DNA from: Sporomusaceae bacterium
GTDB lineage: Bacteria > Bacillota > Negativicutes > UBA1444
Assembly (NCBI GenBank): GCA_018434355.1
Contig: JAHDPL010000024.1
Coordinates: 62,001-126,000 of the forward strand
Direction of reading: 5' to 3'
DNA: 64,000 nt
The translations under genes were made by a program, and so were the position numbers. Positions 9,598 through 64,000 of the stretch are shown piece by piece; position 1 is the first letter of the stretch; every line of letters begins with the position of its first letter. The notes beneath the pieces were generated by a model. That model did not search any database, was not told the origin of the DNA, and saw only the letters and a program-made list of their open reading frames with translations.

Positions 9598-9978
9598 ATG
9601 GCGACAGGGATAAAGCCGGAAAAGGAGAAAGAACTGTGGGATATGCATCTAAGTGGCAAAACCGCGCTTGAGCTAGCCGATATCTTCAAGGCGCTGGGCG
9701 ACGAAACTCGGCTGACCATCGTGCAACTGCTGGTTGGCAGGGAACTTTGCGTATGCGATATTCTGGATTCATTTGCCATGTCACAGCCGGCCATTTCTCA
9801 TCATCTGAAAATTTTACGTCAGGCCGGTGTGGTCCGCGACAAGCGGGAGGGCAAGTGGATTTACTACAGCCTGAATCCGGCAACTCTGGATTTATTAAGC
9901 GGCGTGCTTTGTTCACTGCAACGCGATGCGGATAAAAAATCCCGTACCGGGCGCTGCTCGCCAATCGCATTATTATAA
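9598..9978 (+). CDS. arsR: ArsR-family metal(loid)-responsive repressor
   Basis: 126 residues from ATG 9598, with AAAGGAGG at 9581-9588. The winged helix-turn-helix is clear: LADIFKALGDETRLTIVQLL at about 26-45, recognition helix MSQPAISHHLKILRQAGVV, wing REGKWIYYSLN. Cys51 and Cys53 (ELCVCDI) sit in the alpha-3 position used by As(III)/Sb(III) sensors of the ArsR1 type, and extra Cys occur near the C terminus (VLCSLQ, GRCSP). It heads an operon with a permease, an acetyltransferase and a P-type ATPase, and probably represses it from the dyad at 9544-9565 until As(III) or a soft metal binds. Confidence 0.88.
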   Translation: MATGIKPEKEKELWDMHLSGKTALELADIFKALGDETRLTIVQLLVGRELCVCDILDSFAMSQPAISHHLKILRQAGVVRDKREGKWIYYSLNPATLDLLSGVLCSLQRDADKKSRTGRCSPIALL

Positions 9979-10011
9979 CAACCGTTACCGGTCAAGAAAG
10001 AAGGATTTATC

Positions 10012-10959
10012 ATGTTTGAATGGTTTGCCGACCTGGTAGTCTACCAATGGCTGAAATTGCCGCCGGAACAGCATTTTTCGAAAGCCTTGCACTTTTTTGT
10101 TTATGACGCGCCAAAGATTCTTGTGCTTCTGGCAGTGGCGATTTTTGTCATCACAATTATCCGATCATATTTTCCGCCCCAAAAGACCAAGAAATATCTA
10201 AGCCACAAGCGGACGATATTCGGCAATGTGCTGGCGGCTCTGGTCGGAATTATGACTCCGTTTTGCTCCTGTTCGGCGGTTCCTTTGTTCATCGGTTTTA
10301 TCGAAGCCGGCGTGCCGCTCGGCGTGACGTTCTCGTTTCTGATTTCGTCGCCGATGATTAACGAAATCGCACTGGTGTTGCTGTGGGGGATGTTCGGTTG
10401 GAAGGTCGCCCTGTTATATATGGCAAGCGGTCTGGTCATTGCCATCATCGGTGGTTGGGTCATCGGCCGGCTGAAGTTGGAACACTGGGTGGAAGAATAC
10501 GTTTACCAGACCCAAACGACAGACGTCGAACTGGTGGAGCCAAGCTTTGGCGCACGGCTGCGCGATGCTGGCGAGTTTACCGTATCATTGCTGAAATCGA
10601 TTGGTCCTTATATTGTTGTGGCGATTGCCATTGGCGGTTGGATACACGGCTATGTGCCGGATGATTTTATCGTGCAGTATGCAGGGCGAAATAATCCGCT
10701 GGCCGTTCCGTTGGTGGTTGCGATAGGAGTTCCACTTTACAACAGCGGTTCCGGCATGGTGCCGATCGTGTATGCCCTGCTGGAGAAAGGGTTGCCGCTC
10801 GGCACGGCGCTCGCTTTCATGATGGCGGTTTCCGCCATCAGTCTGCCGGAGATGATCATTTTACGTCGGGTGCTGAAAATCCAGTTAGTGATGGTATTTG
10901 CCGGGATATTGGCAGTAGCGGTTATCGCCACCGGATATCTGTTTAATCTGGTAGTATAA
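10012..10959 (+). CDS. ArsP/DUF318-type permease
   Basis: 315 residues from ATG 10012 (AAGAAAGAAGGA upstream), with eight or more membrane helices. The TPFCSCSAVPLF motif at about 80-91 is the hallmark of the permease family that includes ArsP, the exporter of trivalent organoarsenicals, and YraQ-type proteins of unknown substrate. Its repeat-like second half carries VPLYNSGSGMVP. Location just after an ArsR with an arsenic-type Cys pair supports an arsenical substrate. Because the family contains non-arsenic members, I leave the symbol blank. Confidence 0.75.
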   Translation: MFEWFADLVVYQWLKLPPEQHFSKALHFFVYDAPKILVLLAVAIFVITIIRSYFPPQKTKKYLSHKRTIFGNVLAALVGIMTPFCSCSAVPLFIGFIEAGVPLGVTFSFLISSPMINEIALVLLWGMFGWKVALLYMASGLVIAIIGGWVIGRLKLEHWVEEYVYQTQTTDVELVEPSFGARLRDAGEFTVSLLKSIGPYIVVAIAIGGWIHGYVPDDFIVQYAGRNNPLAVPLVVAIGVPLYNSGSGMVPIVYALLEKGLPLGTALAFMMAVSAISLPEMIILRRVLKIQLVMVFAGILAVAVIATGYLFNLVV

Positions 10960-57221: not shown

Positions 57222-57412
57222 CAGAGAACACCTCCTGATGATGAGTTCCACAAACTGGCGGGAGAGTCCTGCAAAATGAGAATAACCGATTGTTTAAGGC
57301 AGGAGACGGAATATTTTTGTGGAAAGACATAAAAAAGAATAATTCATGCGTTACCAAAACCGGTTGGTTGCGTTTAACTGTGTGAAACCAAAAATTTTGG
57401 AGGGTGAGAACG

Positions 57413-58651
57413 ATGATGCGTAAATTGATTGCTGGAGTGATTGTGGTAGGACTTTTATTGGCCTATTTTTCGGTAGGCGTCGTATCTACCGGCGCGGCGG
57501 CGACGATTCCCCGGAAAGATAATCCCGATTTGCGGGCTCAGGTTGCCGGGAATTCGGAGTTTGCGCTGGCGATGGTTCAAAAACTTATGGCAACGTCCGG
57601 GGCGGAAAACATCTTTTTCTCGCCGTATAGCATTTCCACCGCGCTGTCGATGACCTATGCCGGCGCACGGGAGAATACGGCGCGGCAGATGGCTGAAACC
57701 ATGCGTTTTCGCTTGCCGCAGGAAGCTCAACATGCAGCCTTTGCAGCATTAGCCAGGGCAATGAACCCGGAAGGTCAGAACTATCGACTGGAGATTTCCA
57801 ATGCACTATGGGGACAGCAAGGTTATGCCTTTCAGTCAGAGTTCCTTGACCTGGTGAAAAAGTATTACGAGGGCGGCTTCAATACGGTGGATTTTGCCGG
57901 GCAGACGGAAGCGAGCCGGGCAATCATCAATCGTTGGGTCGAGCAAAAAACCGCCGACAAGATCAAAGATTTACTGGCGCAGGGATCGTTGACTCCGCTG
58001 ACCCGGTTGGTACTGACCAACGCCATCTATTTCAAGGGCGACTGGGAAAGTCAGTTCAAACCGGCGATGACCCGTCCGATGCGCTTTCATCTGAATGAGA
58101 CGCAGACGGTTGATGTGCCGATGATGCGGCAAAGCGGCAATTTCCTGTTTACGGAGAATGATGCGGTCAAAGTGTTAGAGTTGCCATATGTCGGTCAGGA
58201 GTTGTCGATGATACTGGTGTTGCCGAAAGGTAAACCGGAGGAATTTGCCCGATCGCTTGACTTGACTCGACTGCATGAGTGGCAGGGACAGGTTGCCCGT
58301 CAGGAAGTCGATATCTATCTGCCGAAATTCAAGTTTGAAACCCAGTATGAACTTAAAGAACTGTTGTCCGGCATGGGGATGCTGGATGCGTTTGAACTAC
58401 CGCCAGCCGATTTCTCCGGCATATCTGGATACAAAGACCTGTATATCACCAAAGTCATCCACAAAGCGATCATCGAAGTGAACGAAGAGGGCAGTGAGGC
58501 TGCCGCCGCTACAGCGGTCGTGGTCGGAACCAAAGCAGTGATGCACAAGCCGGTGTTCAAGGCAGATCATCCGTTCCTGTTCATGATTCGGCACAATGAA
58601 ACCGGTTCGATCCTGTTCCTGGGCCGAGTGGCAAATCCTGCGGCAAAGTAG
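57413..58651 (+). CDS. Secreted serpin (inhibitory type)
   Basis: 412 residues from ATG 57413, eight bases after GGAGGG. N-terminal signal or anchor (LIAGVIVVGLLLAYFSVGVV), so it is exported. The full serpin fold is present: NIFFSPYSISTALSMTYAGA, LVLTNAIYFKGDWESQF, the shutter and breach regions, and VNEEGSEAAAATAVVVG, an inhibitory hinge with small residues at P12-P9. Counting from the hinge Gly as P15 places a Lys near P1 (GTKAV), hinting at a trypsin-like target. The loop C-terminal of it is about two residues longer than in antitrypsin, so P1 is uncertain. The end DHPFLFMIRHNETGSILFLGRVANP is standard. Bacterial serpins are sporadic, suggesting old transfer. Confidence 0.9.
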   Translation: MMRKLIAGVIVVGLLLAYFSVGVVSTGAAATIPRKDNPDLRAQVAGNSEFALAMVQKLMATSGAENIFFSPYSISTALSMTYAGARENTARQMAETMRFRLPQEAQHAAFAALARAMNPEGQNYRLEISNALWGQQGYAFQSEFLDLVKKYYEGGFNTVDFAGQTEASRAIINRWVEQKTADKIKDLLAQGSLTPLTRLVLTNAIYFKGDWESQFKPAMTRPMRFHLNETQTVDVPMMRQSGNFLFTENDAVKVLELPYVGQELSMILVLPKGKPEEFARSLDLTRLHEWQGQVARQEVDIYLPKFKFETQYELKELLSGMGMLDAFELPPADFSGISGYKDLYITKVIHKAIIEVNEEGSEAAAATAVVVGTKAVMHKPVFKADHPFLFMIRHNETGSILFLGRVANPAAK

Positions 58652-58688: not shown

Positions 58689-58724
58689 AAGGTCGGCTCT
58701 GCGTGAAGCGGAGCCGGCCTTTTA
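58689..58724 (+). terminator. Intrinsic terminator after the serpin gene
   Basis: AAGGTCGGCTCTGC, loop GTGA, AGCGGAGCCGGCCTT, with T run TTTTAT. Fourteen mostly canonical pairs. Confidence 0.85.
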
Positions 58725-58826
58725 TAAATTTTGAGATAATTATGAGAAAAAGTAGGGATTGGCGCAGGCAGGTCAAATTTAAGAATTAACGATAATACTG
58801 AATATTTGAAATGGGGGAATCAAGAC

Positions 58827-59390
58827 ATGAAACAATGGATGAAAGTTCTGGTTTTGGCGATGGCGATCGGTTTAGTGGCGCTAACTGGCGGTCCGGTCCA
58901 GGCAGCCGGTTTGAGCGAACCGATTTTTGAGAGTCCGACACTGATCACTTCGGTTGGCCAGAGTGCTGACGGGCAAATGGTCAAGGTGCTGGCGCAGCGG
59001 ATCGGACTGACCTTTACCTATGAAACCTTGGCGCCGGAGTCGGCCGTCAGTCAGTACAAGACCCTGATTTTGGTTGTTGGCGGCAGTTCGAAAGGTCTTG
59101 GTGCAGCTGGAATCAATCTGGACCAGGAAGAGCGAAGGACCAAGGCGTTGATTGCGGCTGCCAAAGATGCCGGCGTTAAAATCCTGTTCATGCATGTCGG
59201 CGGCGAAGCAAGACGCGGTGAACTGACCGACCGATTTGTCAGCCTCAGCGCTCCGGCAGCCAATTACCTCATCGTTGTGGCAGACGGAAATAAGGACGGA
59301 TTCATGACCAATGCAGCAGGCGGAGCGCCGATCGACATGGCTGATTCTGTCGGCGATGCGGGACGCTTGATGAAAGCGGCTTACAAATAA
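58827..59390 (+). CDS. DUF6305-type exported protein
   Basis: 187 residues from ATG 58827 (GGGGGAATC upstream). A signal peptide (VLVLAMAIGLVALTGGPVQAAG) leads to a mature domain of about 160 residues with alternating strands and helices: PTLITSVGQSADGQMVKVLAQRIGL, YKTLILVVGGSSKGLGAAGINLDQEERR, VKILFMHVGGEARRG and NYLIVVADGNKDGF. I assign it to the DUF6305 family with moderate confidence. In position it takes the place of a substrate-binding protein: the DctM-like permease starts two bases after its stop. A ligand-binding role is inferred. It heads the operon ending with gamma-glutamyltransferase. Confidence 0.65.
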   Translation: MKQWMKVLVLAMAIGLVALTGGPVQAAGLSEPIFESPTLITSVGQSADGQMVKVLAQRIGLTFTYETLAPESAVSQYKTLILVVGGSSKGLGAAGINLDQEERRTKALIAAAKDAGVKILFMHVGGEARRGELTDRFVSLSAPAANYLIVVADGNKDGFMTNAAGGAPIDMADSVGDAGRLMKAAYK

Positions 59391-59392
59391 CG

Positions 59393-60667
59393 ATGTCACA
59401 GGAAACAATCTTGTTGTTATTGATGTTGGCGGCTTTTCTCGGGTTGGTCGCCGGATTGAAATGGCCGGTAGGCCTTGCGCTGGCTGCGACCAGCGTTGTC
59501 GTAGCGGCTGCCGACGGGCAGGGATTTCCGCTAAGACATCTGGTCGAGGGCATGTTCGGTTATCTTGATGTATCGCTTGTGCTGATTACGGCGATGATTT
59601 TCATGAAGATCATTGAACGCAACGGCTTGCTGGATGTGCTGGCCTGCGATCTAATGCTGCGGTTCGGCCGTTCGCCTGCCACCATGCTTACGGCGATGAC
59701 GCTGATCATCATGTTTCCAGGCATGATCACCGGTTCCTGCACTGCTTCGGTGCTATCCACCGGTGTTTTGCTGACGCCGGTGCTATTGAAAATGGATATG
59801 CCGCGGGCGAAAGCGGGGGCGATCGTGGCGATGGCTTCCGTTTATGGCATGATTGCGCCGCCGGTCAATATCGTGGTCATGATCATTGGCGGCGGGATCG
59901 ATATGCCTTACATCGGTTTTGACTTGCCGTTATTGCTGATGACTTTGCCGCTGGCTATTTTGACTACGCTTTACCTGGGCTATGGTTTTGCCCGCAAAGC
60001 CGATATGGAAAGCGTCGTCAGTGAATTCACCTGCCATGAAAGAGCGCCGGGCGGATTTTTGCTTTATCTGCCGCTCCTCGTCGTCTTGGTGCTGATGATC
60101 GGGCCTAAAGCGCTACCGGGAATCTTTCCCGATCCACGCTTGCCGCTGACCTTTGTGATTGGCAGTGCTCTGGCGATGCTGTCCGGTCGCAAATTTAATC
60201 TACTGGAGACAGCACGGGCCGGTGTGGCGGAAATATTGCCTGTTGTGGGGATTCTGATGGGAGTGGGCATGTTGATTCAAATCATGACTCTCACCGGTAT
60301 CCGCGGCAGCATCGCGGTCAGTAGCCTCAGTTTGCCGCAATATCTACTATTGGCCAGTATCGCTGTTACCTTGCCTCTGTTTGGCGGAATTTCCGTGTTT
60401 GGCGCCGCCAGTGTTCTAGGTGTGCCGTTTATCCTGACGATGCTGGGACAGAACTTGATCATCACGGCTTCAGGCATGTCGCTGATCGCCGCGATGGGCA
60501 GCTTCATGCCGCCGGTGGCATTGACCGCCGTGATTGCCGCCCAGGTGGTCGAGGAACCGGATTACCTGAAGATCGTCAAGCCGCTTGTCGTGCCGTCGTT
60601 GGTTGCGATCGGCATCGGCGTGCTGATGATCAAATACGCCACGCAAATTGCGCGGTTGGTATTATGA
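59393..60667 (+). CDS. TRAP-type large permease (DctM-like)
   Basis: 424 residues from ATG 59393, two bases after the DUF6305 gene. About 11-12 membrane helices in two repeats. Key signature segments of DctM are recognisable: MFPGMITGSCTASVLSTGVLLTPVLLKMDMP and VYGMIAPPVNIVVMIIGGG in the first half, LPLFGGISVFGAASVLGVPF and GSFMPPVALTAVIAAQ in the second. TRAP carriers normally work with a DctP binding protein and a four-helix DctQ subunit. Neither is here, but a DUF6305 protein and a 48-residue membrane protein occupy their places. It likely imports an organic anion with Na+. Confidence 0.8.
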   Translation: MSQETILLLLMLAAFLGLVAGLKWPVGLALAATSVVVAAADGQGFPLRHLVEGMFGYLDVSLVLITAMIFMKIIERNGLLDVLACDLMLRFGRSPATMLTAMTLIIMFPGMITGSCTASVLSTGVLLTPVLLKMDMPRAKAGAIVAMASVYGMIAPPVNIVVMIIGGGIDMPYIGFDLPLLLMTLPLAILTTLYLGYGFARKADMESVVSEFTCHERAPGGFLLYLPLLVVLVLMIGPKALPGIFPDPRLPLTFVIGSALAMLSGRKFNLLETARAGVAEILPVVGILMGVGMLIQIMTLTGIRGSIAVSSLSLPQYLLLASIAVTLPLFGGISVFGAASVLGVPFILTMLGQNLIITASGMSLIAAMGSFMPPVALTAVIAAQVVEEPDYLKIVKPLVVPSLVAIGIGVLMIKYATQIARLVL

Positions 60668-60680
60668 GGGGAGATCAGCA

Positions 60681-60827
60681 ATGATGACGATAGTGTACCG
60701 ACTGATTTTGGTCGCGGCAATCCTGTTGATTGTGCTCGAAATGACCAAAGAAAAGGAACTAAAATATCAAATCAATGCCGCATGGGTACTTATTCCCTTT
60801 ATCCTGCGTGCGCTGATGCTGGCGTGA
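60681..60827 (+). CDS. 48-residue membrane protein, possible mini-subunit of the DctM-like permease
   Basis: ATG 60681 to TGA 60827, with GAGGGGAG 8-10 bases upstream. The peptide has one N-terminal hydrophobic helix (YRLILVAAILLIVLEM), a charged middle (TKEKELKYQ) and a second hydrophobic helix (INAAWVLIPFILRALMLA). Good ribosome site, tight spacing (13 bases after the permease, 10 before the hydrolase) and two-helix pattern argue that it is real. No family recognised. Position suggests an accessory subunit replacing DctQ. Confidence 0.65.
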   Translation: MMTIVYRLILVAAILLIVLEMTKEKELKYQINAAWVLIPFILRALMLA

Positions 60828-60837
60828 GGGTGAACGG

Positions 60838-61962
60838 ATGCGAATGATGCAAGGAACTAAAAAGACGGCATTCATCCTGTTGGCGCTGAGTATGCTGGTT
60901 GTGGTCGCCGTAACACCGGATTTTCGACGGATGCATGTGGAAGAACCGATACGCAAGGGACCGGGCGTGACTACGGTTAAACAGCTGAGCGACTATTTTG
61001 CCAAACTAAAAGGGACCAATGGCGATACCCCGGTATATGTGCTGGACAGCGGCAAGCCGGGCGGTACGGCGCTGGTTCTGGGCGGCACTCATCCCAACGA
61101 ACCTTCCTCGTTTCTGAGCGCCTTGTTGTTGATTGAAAATGCGAAGCCGGCCAAAGGTCGTCTGATCGTCATTCCTCGGGCGAACAATAGCGGCTTCAGT
61201 CACACCGACTATACCGAAGGAGCGCCGCAGCATTTCATGCTAAAGGCGGCTTCGGGAGAGCGCTGGTTCCGTTTTGGCTCGCGGGCGACCAATCCGACCG
61301 ACCAATGGCCTGACCCGGATATTTATGTGCATGCGGCTTCCGGCCAAAAACTGTCCGGCTCGGAAACTCGCAACCTGAACCGCGCCTATCCCGGTCGGCC
61401 CGACGGCACGTTGACCGAGCAGGTCGCCTATGGGATTGTTCAGTTGATTCGTCAGGAAAAAGTAGCGATGACGATTGATTTGCATGAAGCCTCGCCGGAA
61501 TACCCGGTCATCAATGCAATCGTCGCCCATGAACGGGCGATGGACTATGCGGCGGAAGTCACCATCGGTTTGCAGATGGATGGAATCAAGATCGGTCTTG
61601 AGCCTTCGCCGAAAAGTCTGCGCGGCCTGTCTCACCGCGAGCTGGGCGATGCCACCGATACCCTGGCGATCCTGATGGAAACTGCCAATCCAGCCCAGGG
61701 CAGGTTGCGTGGTGCAACCAACGCCGCGTTGGTCGTAACCGGCAAGGATGTCATGTATGAACGGGCGGCGAAGCTGAACCGGTTGTTCGTTCCTTATGAT
61801 GAAAAAGGCCAACCGATCGATTTGCGGGTGGCCCGGCATGTAACGGCAATCAATGAGTTCCTGAACGTTCTTTCCGTCAAAAACCCTGCCCAGGCGGTCG
61901 TCCTGAACCGTGTCCCTTCATACAACGACATGGTCAAGAAGGGAATCGGCTCTTATCTATAA
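60838..61962 (+). CDS. Exported AspA/AstE-M14-like zinc hydrolase
   Basis: 374 residues from ATG 60838; ATG 60844 is also possible. An uncleaved or cleaved N-terminal signal (AFILLALSMLVVVAVTP) places the domain outside the membrane. Zinc site of the succinylglutamate desuccinylase/aspartoacylase and M14 carboxypeptidase group: GGTHPNEPSS (His85, Glu88) and a later His in TIDLHEASPEYP (His216), with RNLNRAYPGRPDG supplying Arg/Asn substrate residues. Relatives release acyl groups or amino acids from N-acyl amino acids. It lies between the small membrane protein and gamma-glutamyltransferase, so I infer it trims a compound before uptake by the permease. Confidence 0.75.
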   Translation: MRMMQGTKKTAFILLALSMLVVVAVTPDFRRMHVEEPIRKGPGVTTVKQLSDYFAKLKGTNGDTPVYVLDSGKPGGTALVLGGTHPNEPSSFLSALLLIENAKPAKGRLIVIPRANNSGFSHTDYTEGAPQHFMLKAASGERWFRFGSRATNPTDQWPDPDIYVHAASGQKLSGSETRNLNRAYPGRPDGTLTEQVAYGIVQLIRQEKVAMTIDLHEASPEYPVINAIVAHERAMDYAAEVTIGLQMDGIKIGLEPSPKSLRGLSHRELGDATDTLAILMETANPAQGRLRGATNAALVVTGKDVMYERAAKLNRLFVPYDEKGQPIDLRVARHVTAINEFLNVLSVKNPAQAVVLNRVPSYNDMVKKGIGSYL

Positions 61963-61996
61963 TAATAAGACCAGCAAAATAAGAGGAGGGTATACG

Positions 61997-63730
61997 ATGA
62001 AAAAAATCAGATCCTGGATGGCCCTATCCCTGGCGTTGCTACTGATTCTGTCGGTGGTGACGGCTGCAGCCGGACCCTACGATCCGCCGGAAAAACGCGA
62101 CGTAATCGCCAAGAACGGCGTGGTGGCGGCTGCGCATCCGCTGGCAGCCCAGGCCGGATTGGAAGTGCTGAAAAAAGGCGGCAATGCCTTTGATGCGGCG
62201 ATTGCAACTTCCTTCATGCTGAATGTGGTCGAACCGAACGCATCGGGAATGGGCGGTGGCGGTTTCGCTGTCATCTATACCGCCAAAGACAAGAAAACCT
62301 ATTTCATCGACTATCGCGAGATGGCGCCTGCTCAGGCCAGACCGGATTTCTATCCGTTAGGTGAAAACGGACGAGTCAAGGATATGGCTACGACCGTCGG
62401 CTTTTATGCCAGCGGCGTGCCAGGCCAACTGCGCGGCATGGAAATGCTGCATCACAAGTTTGCCACGATGAATTGGGCCGACTTGGTCGCTCCGGCAATC
62501 AAACAGTCCGAACAAGGCCTGGTCGTGACCAAGAACCTGAACGGCATCATCATGGACAATATCGGCCGGTTCGAAAAATACTCGCCTTCAATGGCTGCAT
62601 TCAAGAGCATCTTCTATAAAGATGGTCTGCCGGCGCAGGAAGGCGACGTAGTAAAAAATGCCGCGCTGACCGAAACCTTGAAGAAAGTTGCCGCCGGTGG
62701 CGCGGATGTCTTCTACAAAGGTGAGATCGCCAATAAAATTGATGCGTATTATGCCAAGAACGCCGGCGGCTGGATCACCAAGGCCGATCTGGCAAACTAC
62801 AAGGCGAAATTGCGTGAACCAGTGCAGGGCACCTATCGCGGCTATACGTTGATCACTTCGCCGCCGCCGTCTTCCGGTGGCCTGACTGCCGTGAATATGC
62901 TAAATATCATGGAAGGCTATGATGTGGCCAAGATGGGCCGCAGTTCGTCCGAGTTCCTGCACACTTTCATCGAAGCGCAAAAACTGGCGTTCTCTGATCG
63001 GAACAAATATATGGCCGATTCCGATTTCGTCAATGTGCCGATGTCCGGCATGGTTGACAAAAAATACGCAGCGGAGCGCCGCAAAATGATCGACCCGGAC
63101 AAAGCCAACAACGCGGTGAAATTCGGCGATCCGGCCAAATACTCCGCCGGTAGCACCACTTCCTTCTCGGTCATCGATAAAGAAGGAAACATGATCACCG
63201 TGACCCAGACGATCAATGATTTCTTTGGCTCCGGCGTGATTGTCGACGGGACAGGGATTATCATGAACGACGAAATGGATGATTTCGTCGCTAACAACCC
63301 CGATCACAACAATGCTCCGGCCCCCGGCAAGCGCCCGCTCAGCAGCATCACCCCGATGATCGTGCTGAAGGATGGCAAGCCGTTCATGACGATGGGAACT
63401 CCGGGCGGTCCGCGCATCATCACCACTGTGGTGGGAATTGTCATGAACGTGGTTGATTTCAAGATGGACCTGCAAACGGCGATTCTTGACGCCCGCTCGC
63501 ACAATCCAAACGCGGCGGTGGCGCAACTGGAAAAACCGGTTGTCGAGTACAAATTCGCCGATTATATGGATGTCGCGGTGCGTGAACTCGAATCACGCGG
63601 CCACAAGCTGAATCTGAGGCCGGAACGTTCCGCCTACTTCGGCGGCGCTCAGGGCATTATGATTTTGCCGGACGGCAGCCTGCATGGCGCTGCTGACAAC
63701 CGGCGGTTGGGACAGGCGTTCGGCTACTAA
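61997..63730 (+). CDS. ggt: Gamma-glutamyltransferase (periplasmic)
   Basis: 577 residues from ATG 61997 (GAGGAGGG upstream); the frame extends into the preceding gene but without a ribosome site. Signal peptide about 1-25 (MALSLALLLILSVVTAAAG). The precursor is self-cleaved before the catalytic Thr387 in STTSFSVIDKEGNM, equivalent to Thr391 of the E. coli enzyme. Other conserved parts are MGGGGFAV, DYREMAPAQA, GVIVDGTGIIMNDEMDDF and the oxyanion Ser pair in RPLSSITPMI. It hydrolyses or transfers the gamma-glutamyl group of glutathione or other gamma-glutamyl amides. Its operon with a transporter and zinc hydrolase suggests a catabolic path. A strong terminator follows. Confidence 0.93.
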   Translation: MKKIRSWMALSLALLLILSVVTAAAGPYDPPEKRDVIAKNGVVAAAHPLAAQAGLEVLKKGGNAFDAAIATSFMLNVVEPNASGMGGGGFAVIYTAKDKKTYFIDYREMAPAQARPDFYPLGENGRVKDMATTVGFYASGVPGQLRGMEMLHHKFATMNWADLVAPAIKQSEQGLVVTKNLNGIIMDNIGRFEKYSPSMAAFKSIFYKDGLPAQEGDVVKNAALTETLKKVAAGGADVFYKGEIANKIDAYYAKNAGGWITKADLANYKAKLREPVQGTYRGYTLITSPPPSSGGLTAVNMLNIMEGYDVAKMGRSSSEFLHTFIEAQKLAFSDRNKYMADSDFVNVPMSGMVDKKYAAERRKMIDPDKANNAVKFGDPAKYSAGSTTSFSVIDKEGNMITVTQTINDFFGSGVIVDGTGIIMNDEMDDFVANNPDHNNAPAPGKRPLSSITPMIVLKDGKPFMTMGTPGGPRIITTVVGIVMNVVDFKMDLQTAILDARSHNPNAAVAQLEKPVVEYKFADYMDVAVRELESRGHKLNLRPERSAYFGGAQGIMILPDGSLHGAADNRRLGQAFGY

Positions 63731-63748
63731 TTCCGTTTCATAGGGCAA

Positions 63749-63770
63749 GGGAGCTTCGGCTCCCTTTTTT
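63749..63770 (+). terminator. Intrinsic terminator after ggt
   Basis: GGGAGC, TTCG tetraloop, GCTCCC, then six T. A textbook hairpin 18 bases after the stop. Confidence 0.93.
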
Positions 63771-63847
63771 GTTTTGCCTTGCTTTTCAACTAAAGCAGGA
63801 AAATCCGGCAATGGCGGGGAATGAATTTGACGAGGGGGAACAGGCCA

Positions 63848-64000
63848 TTGCTTCGCAAGGTTTTGCATAATCGTTTCATTGTCTCTGGAATTTTGCTGAT
63901 TCTGCTGGGGTTGCTCGCACCTCTGCTGCTTACAGTTAAATTGTTCGGCATTTTTCCGCTCATGGTAGAGAGTTTGGACTTATCTAGCAGCGGAGCGTTG
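63848..64000 (+). CDS. Membrane protein, 5' part (runs off the window)
   Basis: At least 51 residues, open to the right edge. TTG 63848 has GAGGGGG nine bases upstream; ATG 63821 in the same frame would add nine residues but has poorer spacing. A basic start (LRKVLHNRF) leads into one hydrophobic helix (IVSGILLILLGLLAPLLLTV), then LFGIFPLMVESL. The family cannot be told from this fragment. Confidence 0.5.
   Translation, partial: MLRKVLHNRFIVSGILLILLGLLAPLLLTVKLFGIFPLMVESLDLSSSGAL

Follow-up and report, generated by a model that had tools for sequence, protein, structure and literature searches.

What do five closely packed genes encode when a transporter permease lies between an exported protein of the DUF6305 family and two exported hydrolases, and which compound could they handle together? 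The question is raised by an operon at positions 58827 to 63730 of a 64,000-nucleotide window (the whole stretch of DNA analysed) from a Sporomusaceae bacterium, which corresponds to positions 62,001 to 126,000 of the forward strand of contig JAHDPL010000024.1 in assembly GCA_018434355.1. The genomic evidence strongly indicates that this operon belongs to a poly-gamma-glutamate gene system marked by PgsB, PgsC and the family TIGR04332. We propose, with about even confidence, that it serves as the extracytoplasmic arm of that system, responsible for trimming, sensing and re-uptake driven by Na+.

All five open reading frames (ORFs) lie on the plus strand, separated by intergenic gaps of 2, 13, 10 and 34 bases and closed by an intrinsic terminator, as the first-pass annotation of this DNA had described them. 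The system extends past the window, so that the remainder escaped that annotation: a gene for a sensor histidine kinase begins at 63821, and one for a response regulator comes next. The features are as follows:

58827..59390, plus strand: DUF6305 protein, 187 aa, with a signal peptide, exported (PF19823, E 1.2e-46)
59393..60667, plus strand: permease similar to DctM, the large subunit of tripartite ATP-independent periplasmic (TRAP) transporters, 424 aa, elevator fold of the ion transporter superfamily (PF06808, 39.6 bits)
60681..60827, plus strand: P48, a 48-aa two-helix membrane protein (31-homologue alignment)
60838..61962, plus strand: AstE/AspA-like zinc hydrolase, 374 aa, exported or membrane-anchored, carboxypeptidase-type fold family (PF24827, 26.8 bits)
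61997..63730, plus strand: gamma-glutamyltransferase (GGT), 577 aa (PF01019, 528 bits; TIGR00066 over cut-off)
63747..63766, plus strand: intrinsic terminator 3' of the GGT gene (8-pair stem, 4-base loop, T-rich tract)
63821..64000, plus strand: sensor histidine kinase, 457 aa (HisKA, HATPase_c), first 60 codons in the window; full gene at L225:422-1795
L225:1803-2429, beyond the window: response regulator following the kinase

The recurrence of this gene set (hereafter the cassette) was assessed at two scales. Among 299 genomes sampled from the phylum of the window genome, DUF6305 was present in 40, in up to nine copies per genome, and 60 neighbourhoods around these matches were compared. The run DUF6305-DctM-P48-zinc enzyme occurred in about 40 of them, while about half had GGT, in up to three copies and at varying places, before the run, within it or after it. 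The permease alignment was also scanned against 84,980 species genomes, returning 449 relatives, the best 80 of which were kept and form the basis of all counts on 80 loci given below, many of these loci being broken by contig ends. Among these best 80 relatives, the permease was accompanied by P48 in 78, by the zinc enzyme in 77, and by DUF6305 and GGT in 71 each. They belong to Bacillota, Spirochaetota, Synergistota, Acidobacteriota, Fusobacteriota, Calditrichota, Ignavibacteriota, Bipolaricaulota and, with one metagenome-assembled genome (MAG), Myxococcota; the cassette thus spans at least nine named phyla, with 16 further loci unranked, including KSB1 and Aminicenantes. This agrees with the earlier suggestion of a conserved, unrecognised gene set, for which a restriction to the window genome would have been fatal, and such wide recurrence rules out chance or artefact as its origin. 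DctM, P48 and the zinc enzyme form an invariant core, nearly always together, around which DUF6305 and GGT shift position. In a quick permease tree the position of GGT requires at least 10 changes and that of DUF6305 three, and linkage kept through repeated rearrangement argues for a joint function.

The tie to poly-gamma-glutamate emerges from the genes that accompany the cassette elsewhere. The kinase of the window is 35% identical to one located beside a solitary DUF6305 gene, and the same kinase family occurs in 32 of the 80 cassette loci. The response regulator likewise comes from a family that accompanies solitary DUF6305. Cassette loci often have four extra genes between the zinc enzyme or GGT and the kinase, encoding a small exported AstE-like enzyme, PgsB (TIGR04012, E 6e-113), PgsC (TIGR04011, E 8e-41) and the "poly-gamma-glutamate system protein" TIGR04332 (E 2e-105). 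The last three exceed NCBI equivalog or subfamily cut-offs (with L105 providing the PgsB and PgsC equivalogs), and the small enzyme exceeds the Pfam AstE cut-off. PgsB, PgsC and TIGR04332 lie inside 42-44 of the 80 cassette loci and inside 21 of the 30 that are full-length, i.e. uncut. Among Selenomonadales, the nearest relatives (L091 and L093) carry the complete 11-gene run, DUF6305-DctM-P48-zinc enzyme-GGT-small zinc enzyme-PgsB-PgsC-TIGR04332-kinase-regulator, and the window genome holds two complementary pieces of it: the window locus on contig C16, with kinase and regulator, and a run of small zinc enzyme-PgsB-PgsC-TIGR04332 on contig C43.

Co-occurrence at genome level points the same way. 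TIGR04332 was detected in 23 of the 299 phylum genomes (22 over cut-off), namely in 20/20 genomes with the cassette and 3/279 of the others, including 0/20 of those with solitary DUF6305 (Fisher p 2.5e-28, a nominal value since species are not independent). In one of the cassette genomes, G201, the contig ends so that just GGT-DUF6305 is visible, and excluding it leaves 19/19. Outside the phylum, the association was tested on 30 genomes reached through the loci, and where the retrieved locus of a named cassette genome had no TIGR04332 (25 genomes, spread over many phyla), the gene was present elsewhere in 24. TIGR04332 exists without the cassette, but the reverse hardly occurs, which suggests that the cassette depends on the polyglutamate system. 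Fusobacterium, one of the cassette-bearing lineages, includes F. nucleatum, reported as a polyglutamate producer (Candela 2009, cited in PMC3815933).

Compared with the described pgsBCA(E) and capBCAD operons, these loci likewise combine PgsB and PgsC equivalogs, here with TIGR04332, and an extracellular enzyme of the GGT family, recalling CapD and the B. subtilis GGT that acts as a depolymerase. They differ in that CapA/PgsA was not recognised in the runs, where TIGR04332 may take its place, and in the addition of the permease, the two-helix protein, DUF6305, AstE-like zinc enzymes and the kinase/regulator pair, none of which figures in the operon descriptions consulted. Searching TIGR04332 against PDB sequences matched nothing useful. 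The family is presumably defined by such PgsB/PgsC neighbourhoods.

Both exported hydrolases appear catalytically competent, in line with what the first-pass annotation had predicted, including an intact nucleophile in GGT. The zinc enzyme matches the AstE/AspA catalytic domain weakly (cut-off of PF24827, 25 bits), and its best PDB profile match is 2qj8 (E 2.6e-11), the nearest solved structures being 2qj8, 3cdx and 6twm. Across 36 homologues H85, E88, H216, E281 and the N179-x-x-R182 motif are invariant, so that the HxxE...H ligands, the catalytic Glu and NxxR are present and all catalytic and carboxylate-binding residues are kept. The nucleophile of GGT, Thr387 (63155-63157), is invariant and aligns with E. 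coli Thr391 (2e0w), and further residues align with R114, D433 and S462-S463, the substrate-binding Arg, Asp and Ser-Ser (E. coli numbering); nucleophile and binding residues are both kept. Alignment with 2e0w and 4y23 also indicates that the enzyme lacks the lid loop, as in the Bacillus enzyme.

The closest described relatives of the zinc enzyme are N-acetyl-diaminobutyrate deacetylase (DoeB) and the succinylglutamate desuccinylase (AstE) family, which are cytoplasmic, catabolic enzymes. It shares with them the zinc ligands and the NLNR motif, but it is exported, about 45 residues longer, and scores 34 bits against an NCBI DoeB cut-off of 403. Phage PghP and B. subtilis YndL and YoqZ are also carboxypeptidase-type zinc enzymes and act on the gamma-glutamyl link (PMC4497714), whereas the operon enzyme is exported and belongs to the AstE/AspA/DoeB branch (PF24827), its activity on poly-gamma-glutamate being only putative.

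The permease belongs to the DctM large-subunit family by its PF06808 score (cut-off 23.8 bits), yet each of the 16 ordinary DctM proteins of the window genome scores at least 266 bits, compared with 39.6 for the operon protein. With the profile of its own family it reaches 459 bits, while the profile of the genome's ordinary DctM misses it. Structural modelling gives it the elevator architecture of the ion transporter superfamily, and TRAP M subunits and divalent anion/sodium symporter (DASS) carriers are equally close to the model (template-modelling (TM) score 0.73-0.74), with TM 0.73 to SiaM (7qha_B). It is a distinct TRAP-like branch, a sequence subfamily of its own with new partners. Among these is P48, whose homologues follow the permease so regularly among the 80 loci that the 48-aa ORF is not due to chance. 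P48 has two hydrophobic stretches separated by a charged loop and was assigned to no family in Pfam or NCBIfam. Its 31-homologue alignment shows no variation at Y6 and R43 and almost none at P39 and L42; as the invariant residues lie at both ends, the positive-inside rule would probably place them, judging from the sequence, at the outer face of the membrane.

TRAP transporters (DctPQM, TAXI and TPAT types) resemble this arrangement in their DctM-fold permease (TM 0.73 to SiaM and IseQM) and in adjacent genes for an exported partner and a small membrane protein. They differ from it in their two-lobed DctP or TAXI protein, as opposed to the single-domain, Rossmann-like DUF6305, in a four-helix DctQ compared with the two helices of P48, and in permease subfamily. 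The operon encodes no DctP, and a profile built on the genome's own DctP proteins found only four across 140 cassette or DUF6305 loci, each beside its own ordinary DctM (loci other than the operon were not screened for TAXI proteins). DctQ is likewise absent from the operon, where P48 occupies its place, the DctQ profile not having been run on all loci. Although TRAP-like, the transporter lacks two components by which TRAP is defined, DctP and DctQ; the earlier observation that DUF6305 and a two-helix protein stand in their places is supported.

That survey also bears on whether this is an ordinary TRAP transporter with its DctP and DctQ elsewhere in the genome, a pairing that the first-pass annotation had named as decisive against its proposal. 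Seventeen DctP genes are present in the window genome, and two of them, G000:C48:51831-52670 (L223) and G000:C18:215840-216640 (L224), have no DctM or DctQ alongside, which could be taken to favour such a pairing. One adjoins a LarA-like gene and the other directly follows a large receptor-like gene, and neither shows any sign of a tie to the operon. None of the cassette loci encodes its own DctP, the ordinary-DctM profile does not recognise the window permease, and DUF6305, P48, the zinc enzyme and GGT are all missing from the fetched ordinary TRAP regions of the window genome. The explanation is hardly credible and was discarded on the strength of the locus survey and profile separation.

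Two loci from the permease survey deserve mention. The permease nearest to that of the window (75%) is encoded at L092, in a MAG labelled Deltaproteobacteria, yet falls within the Selenomonadales clade, reflecting either horizontal transfer or a mixed bin. In the other, a normal cassette is accompanied in tandem by a second DctM-like gene (L103:13346-14635) that is highly diverged (20% identity) and has a P48 and a zinc enzyme to itself.

For DUF6305, a single Rossmann-like domain was predicted (pLDDT 93.9). Alignment of 64 homologues places the conserved residues directly behind strands 1 (G-Q-S), 3 (G-x-S-x-K-G-x-G-A-A), 4 (H-x-G-G-x-x-R-R-G) and 5 (G-x-x-D), and in the model, by its topology, they would cluster at the usual ligand side of Rossmann-like folds. 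DUF6305 is proposed to be the ligand-binding or sensing partner. A kinship with DctP was rejected, the best fold matches being general Rossmann-like proteins across unrelated families (VIA Z up to 8.9), and the search made among solved structures returned no specific relative. PDB sequence matches to dihydropteroate synthase (E about 0.005) were judged to be chance, and TIGR04332 was dismissed as a relative (hhalign probability 2%).

DUF6305 also occurs in other settings. In Bacillota without the cassette, whose genomes lack TIGR04332, it forms a DUF6305-histidine kinase-response regulator locus, often beside Opp/Dpp peptide ABC genes (L031, L034, L039-L044, L047, L056, L057, L068, L070, L081, L088, L089), which resembles a sensory system, so far undescribed, whose sensor protein is external. 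At L033:10816-12024, L035:10623-11831 and L037:11363-12589, flanked by TIGR04332 and the kinase, DUF6305 is fused in one ORF to a small AstE-like zinc hydrolase, a fusion suggesting that both act on the same ligand. Genomes G114 and G200 have nine and seven DUF6305 copies, respectively, mostly in cassettes without GGT, an expansion that likely serves several substrates.

The link with PgsB-PgsC-TIGR04332, joined in many lineages by one with a kinase/regulator pair, makes a gamma-glutamyl polymer or oligomer of the cell's own making the most probable substrate. According to the proposed mechanism, PgsB and PgsC, possibly with TIGR04332, would make and export gamma-linked glutamate chains. GGT would remove residues from the amino end of the chain, and the AstE-like zinc hydrolase and its smaller paralogue would remove carboxyl-end residues or cut inside it. 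DUF6305 would capture the freed glutamate or a short gamma-glutamyl product and pass it to the elevator permease, which, with its two-helix partner replacing DctQ, would mediate ion-driven re-uptake. DUF6305 or its ligand would also signal to the membrane-embedded kinase, and the response regulator would then tune synthesis against breakdown. We infer both substrate and transport direction, the latter assumed from the fold family. More tentatively, and with less than even confidence, the system may represent a new class of binding-protein-linked secondary transporter, made up of a TRAP-like elevator, an exported protein with one Rossmann-like domain and P48 as obligatory subunit, and bound in at least nine phyla to a self-made gamma-glutamyl polymer in a cycle of making outside, trimming, sensing and re-importing.

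Several observations weigh against a re-uptake arm dedicated to polyglutamate. Some genomes have 4-9 DUF6305/permease copies and a single TIGR04332, for which diversified substrates fit better than one polymer. One group of cassettes, with more distant permeases, carries no GGT. The absence of TIGR04332 from genomes with the solitary DUF6305-kinase-regulator module implies that DUF6305 is not specific for gamma-glutamyl ligands. In the window genome, PgsB-PgsC-TIGR04332 is unlinked to the operon, and the single CapA match is marginal (PF09587, 26.5 bits) and not near PgsB. The multi-copy permeases, the GGT-less clade and the solitary DUF6305 keep two rivals in contention, stand-alone scavenging and a gamma-glutamyl-donor cycle.

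Scavenging was the function first proposed for the operon: GGT and the zinc enzyme would split external gamma-glutamyl peptides (glutathione and others) or N-acyl amino acids outside the cell and the permease would import the product. On this view the polyglutamate link would reflect the shared physiology of glutamate-fermenting anaerobes and not a shared substrate. The operon GGT is indeed a true GGT with glutathione-type binding residues, the closest relatives of the zinc enzyme are N-acyl amino acid deacylases, multi-copy cassettes suggest several substrates, and the solitary DUF6305-kinase module adjoins peptide ABC transporters. Shared physiology, however, leaves unexplained the complete co-occurrence with TIGR04332 in cassette genomes, the contiguous 11-gene runs and the lack of TIGR04332 in solitary-DUF6305 genomes. 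Scavenging as originally put is not upheld, given the tie to PgsB-PgsC-TIGR04332 and often to the kinase/regulator pair, and we regard it as unlikely. The polymer could alternatively act as an extracellular gamma-glutamyl donor, in the role of glutathione in the gamma-glutamyl cycle, with GGT transferring the group to external amino acids or peptides and the permease importing gamma-glutamyl-X. This would account for synthase, transpeptidase and importer occurring together and for several permeases per synthase, but part of the cassettes have no GGT, and we consider it distinctly unlikely. Capsule maturation, to which we attach little probability, would have a CapD-like GGT trim the polymer and attach it to the surface, zinc hydrolases set chain length and the permease only supply glutamate for synthesis. 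PgsB and PgsC in the operon speak for it, as does the GGT-family CapD of the B. anthracis cap operon, which anchors the polymer (PMC4497714); it does not explain why permease, P48 and zinc enzyme form the invariant core while GGT is dispensable.

PgsB, PgsC and TIGR04332 are already known to annotators as one system, as the family names attest. In the open literature searched, no paper naming DUF6305 or linking a TRAP-like permease set with poly-gamma-glutamate genes was found, and the TIGR04332 product was named once, in passing. A polyglutamate system equipped with its own putative arm for transport, trimming and sensing thus appears to be new, a widely conserved and apparently undescribed gene system. 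Poly-gamma-glutamate has so far been studied mostly as a Bacillus capsule or product. If the re-uptake reading is true, many anaerobic, largely peptide-fermenting lineages re-import and sense their own polyglutamate, and the view of the polymer's purpose would change. DUF6305 and TIGR04332 also receive an initial functional hypothesis, P48 is added as a conserved microprotein that had no name, and the transporter makes it possible to examine the working of a TRAP-like elevator that has neither DctP nor DctQ. Culturable carriers, namely Clostridium tetanomorphum, Clostridium pascui and Fusibacter paucivorans, make the system directly testable.

Further genes were noted around these loci. A third DUF6305 context (L085:9844-10416 and L087 near 9837-10544) places the family beside sugar-kinase/ATPase-type, carbamate-kinase-like and amidohydrolase-like genes. 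In the window, the operon is immediately preceded by a gene for an exported serpin (57404-58651; PF00079, 432 bits), which lies outside the conserved set and is closed by its own hairpin near 58690-58730.

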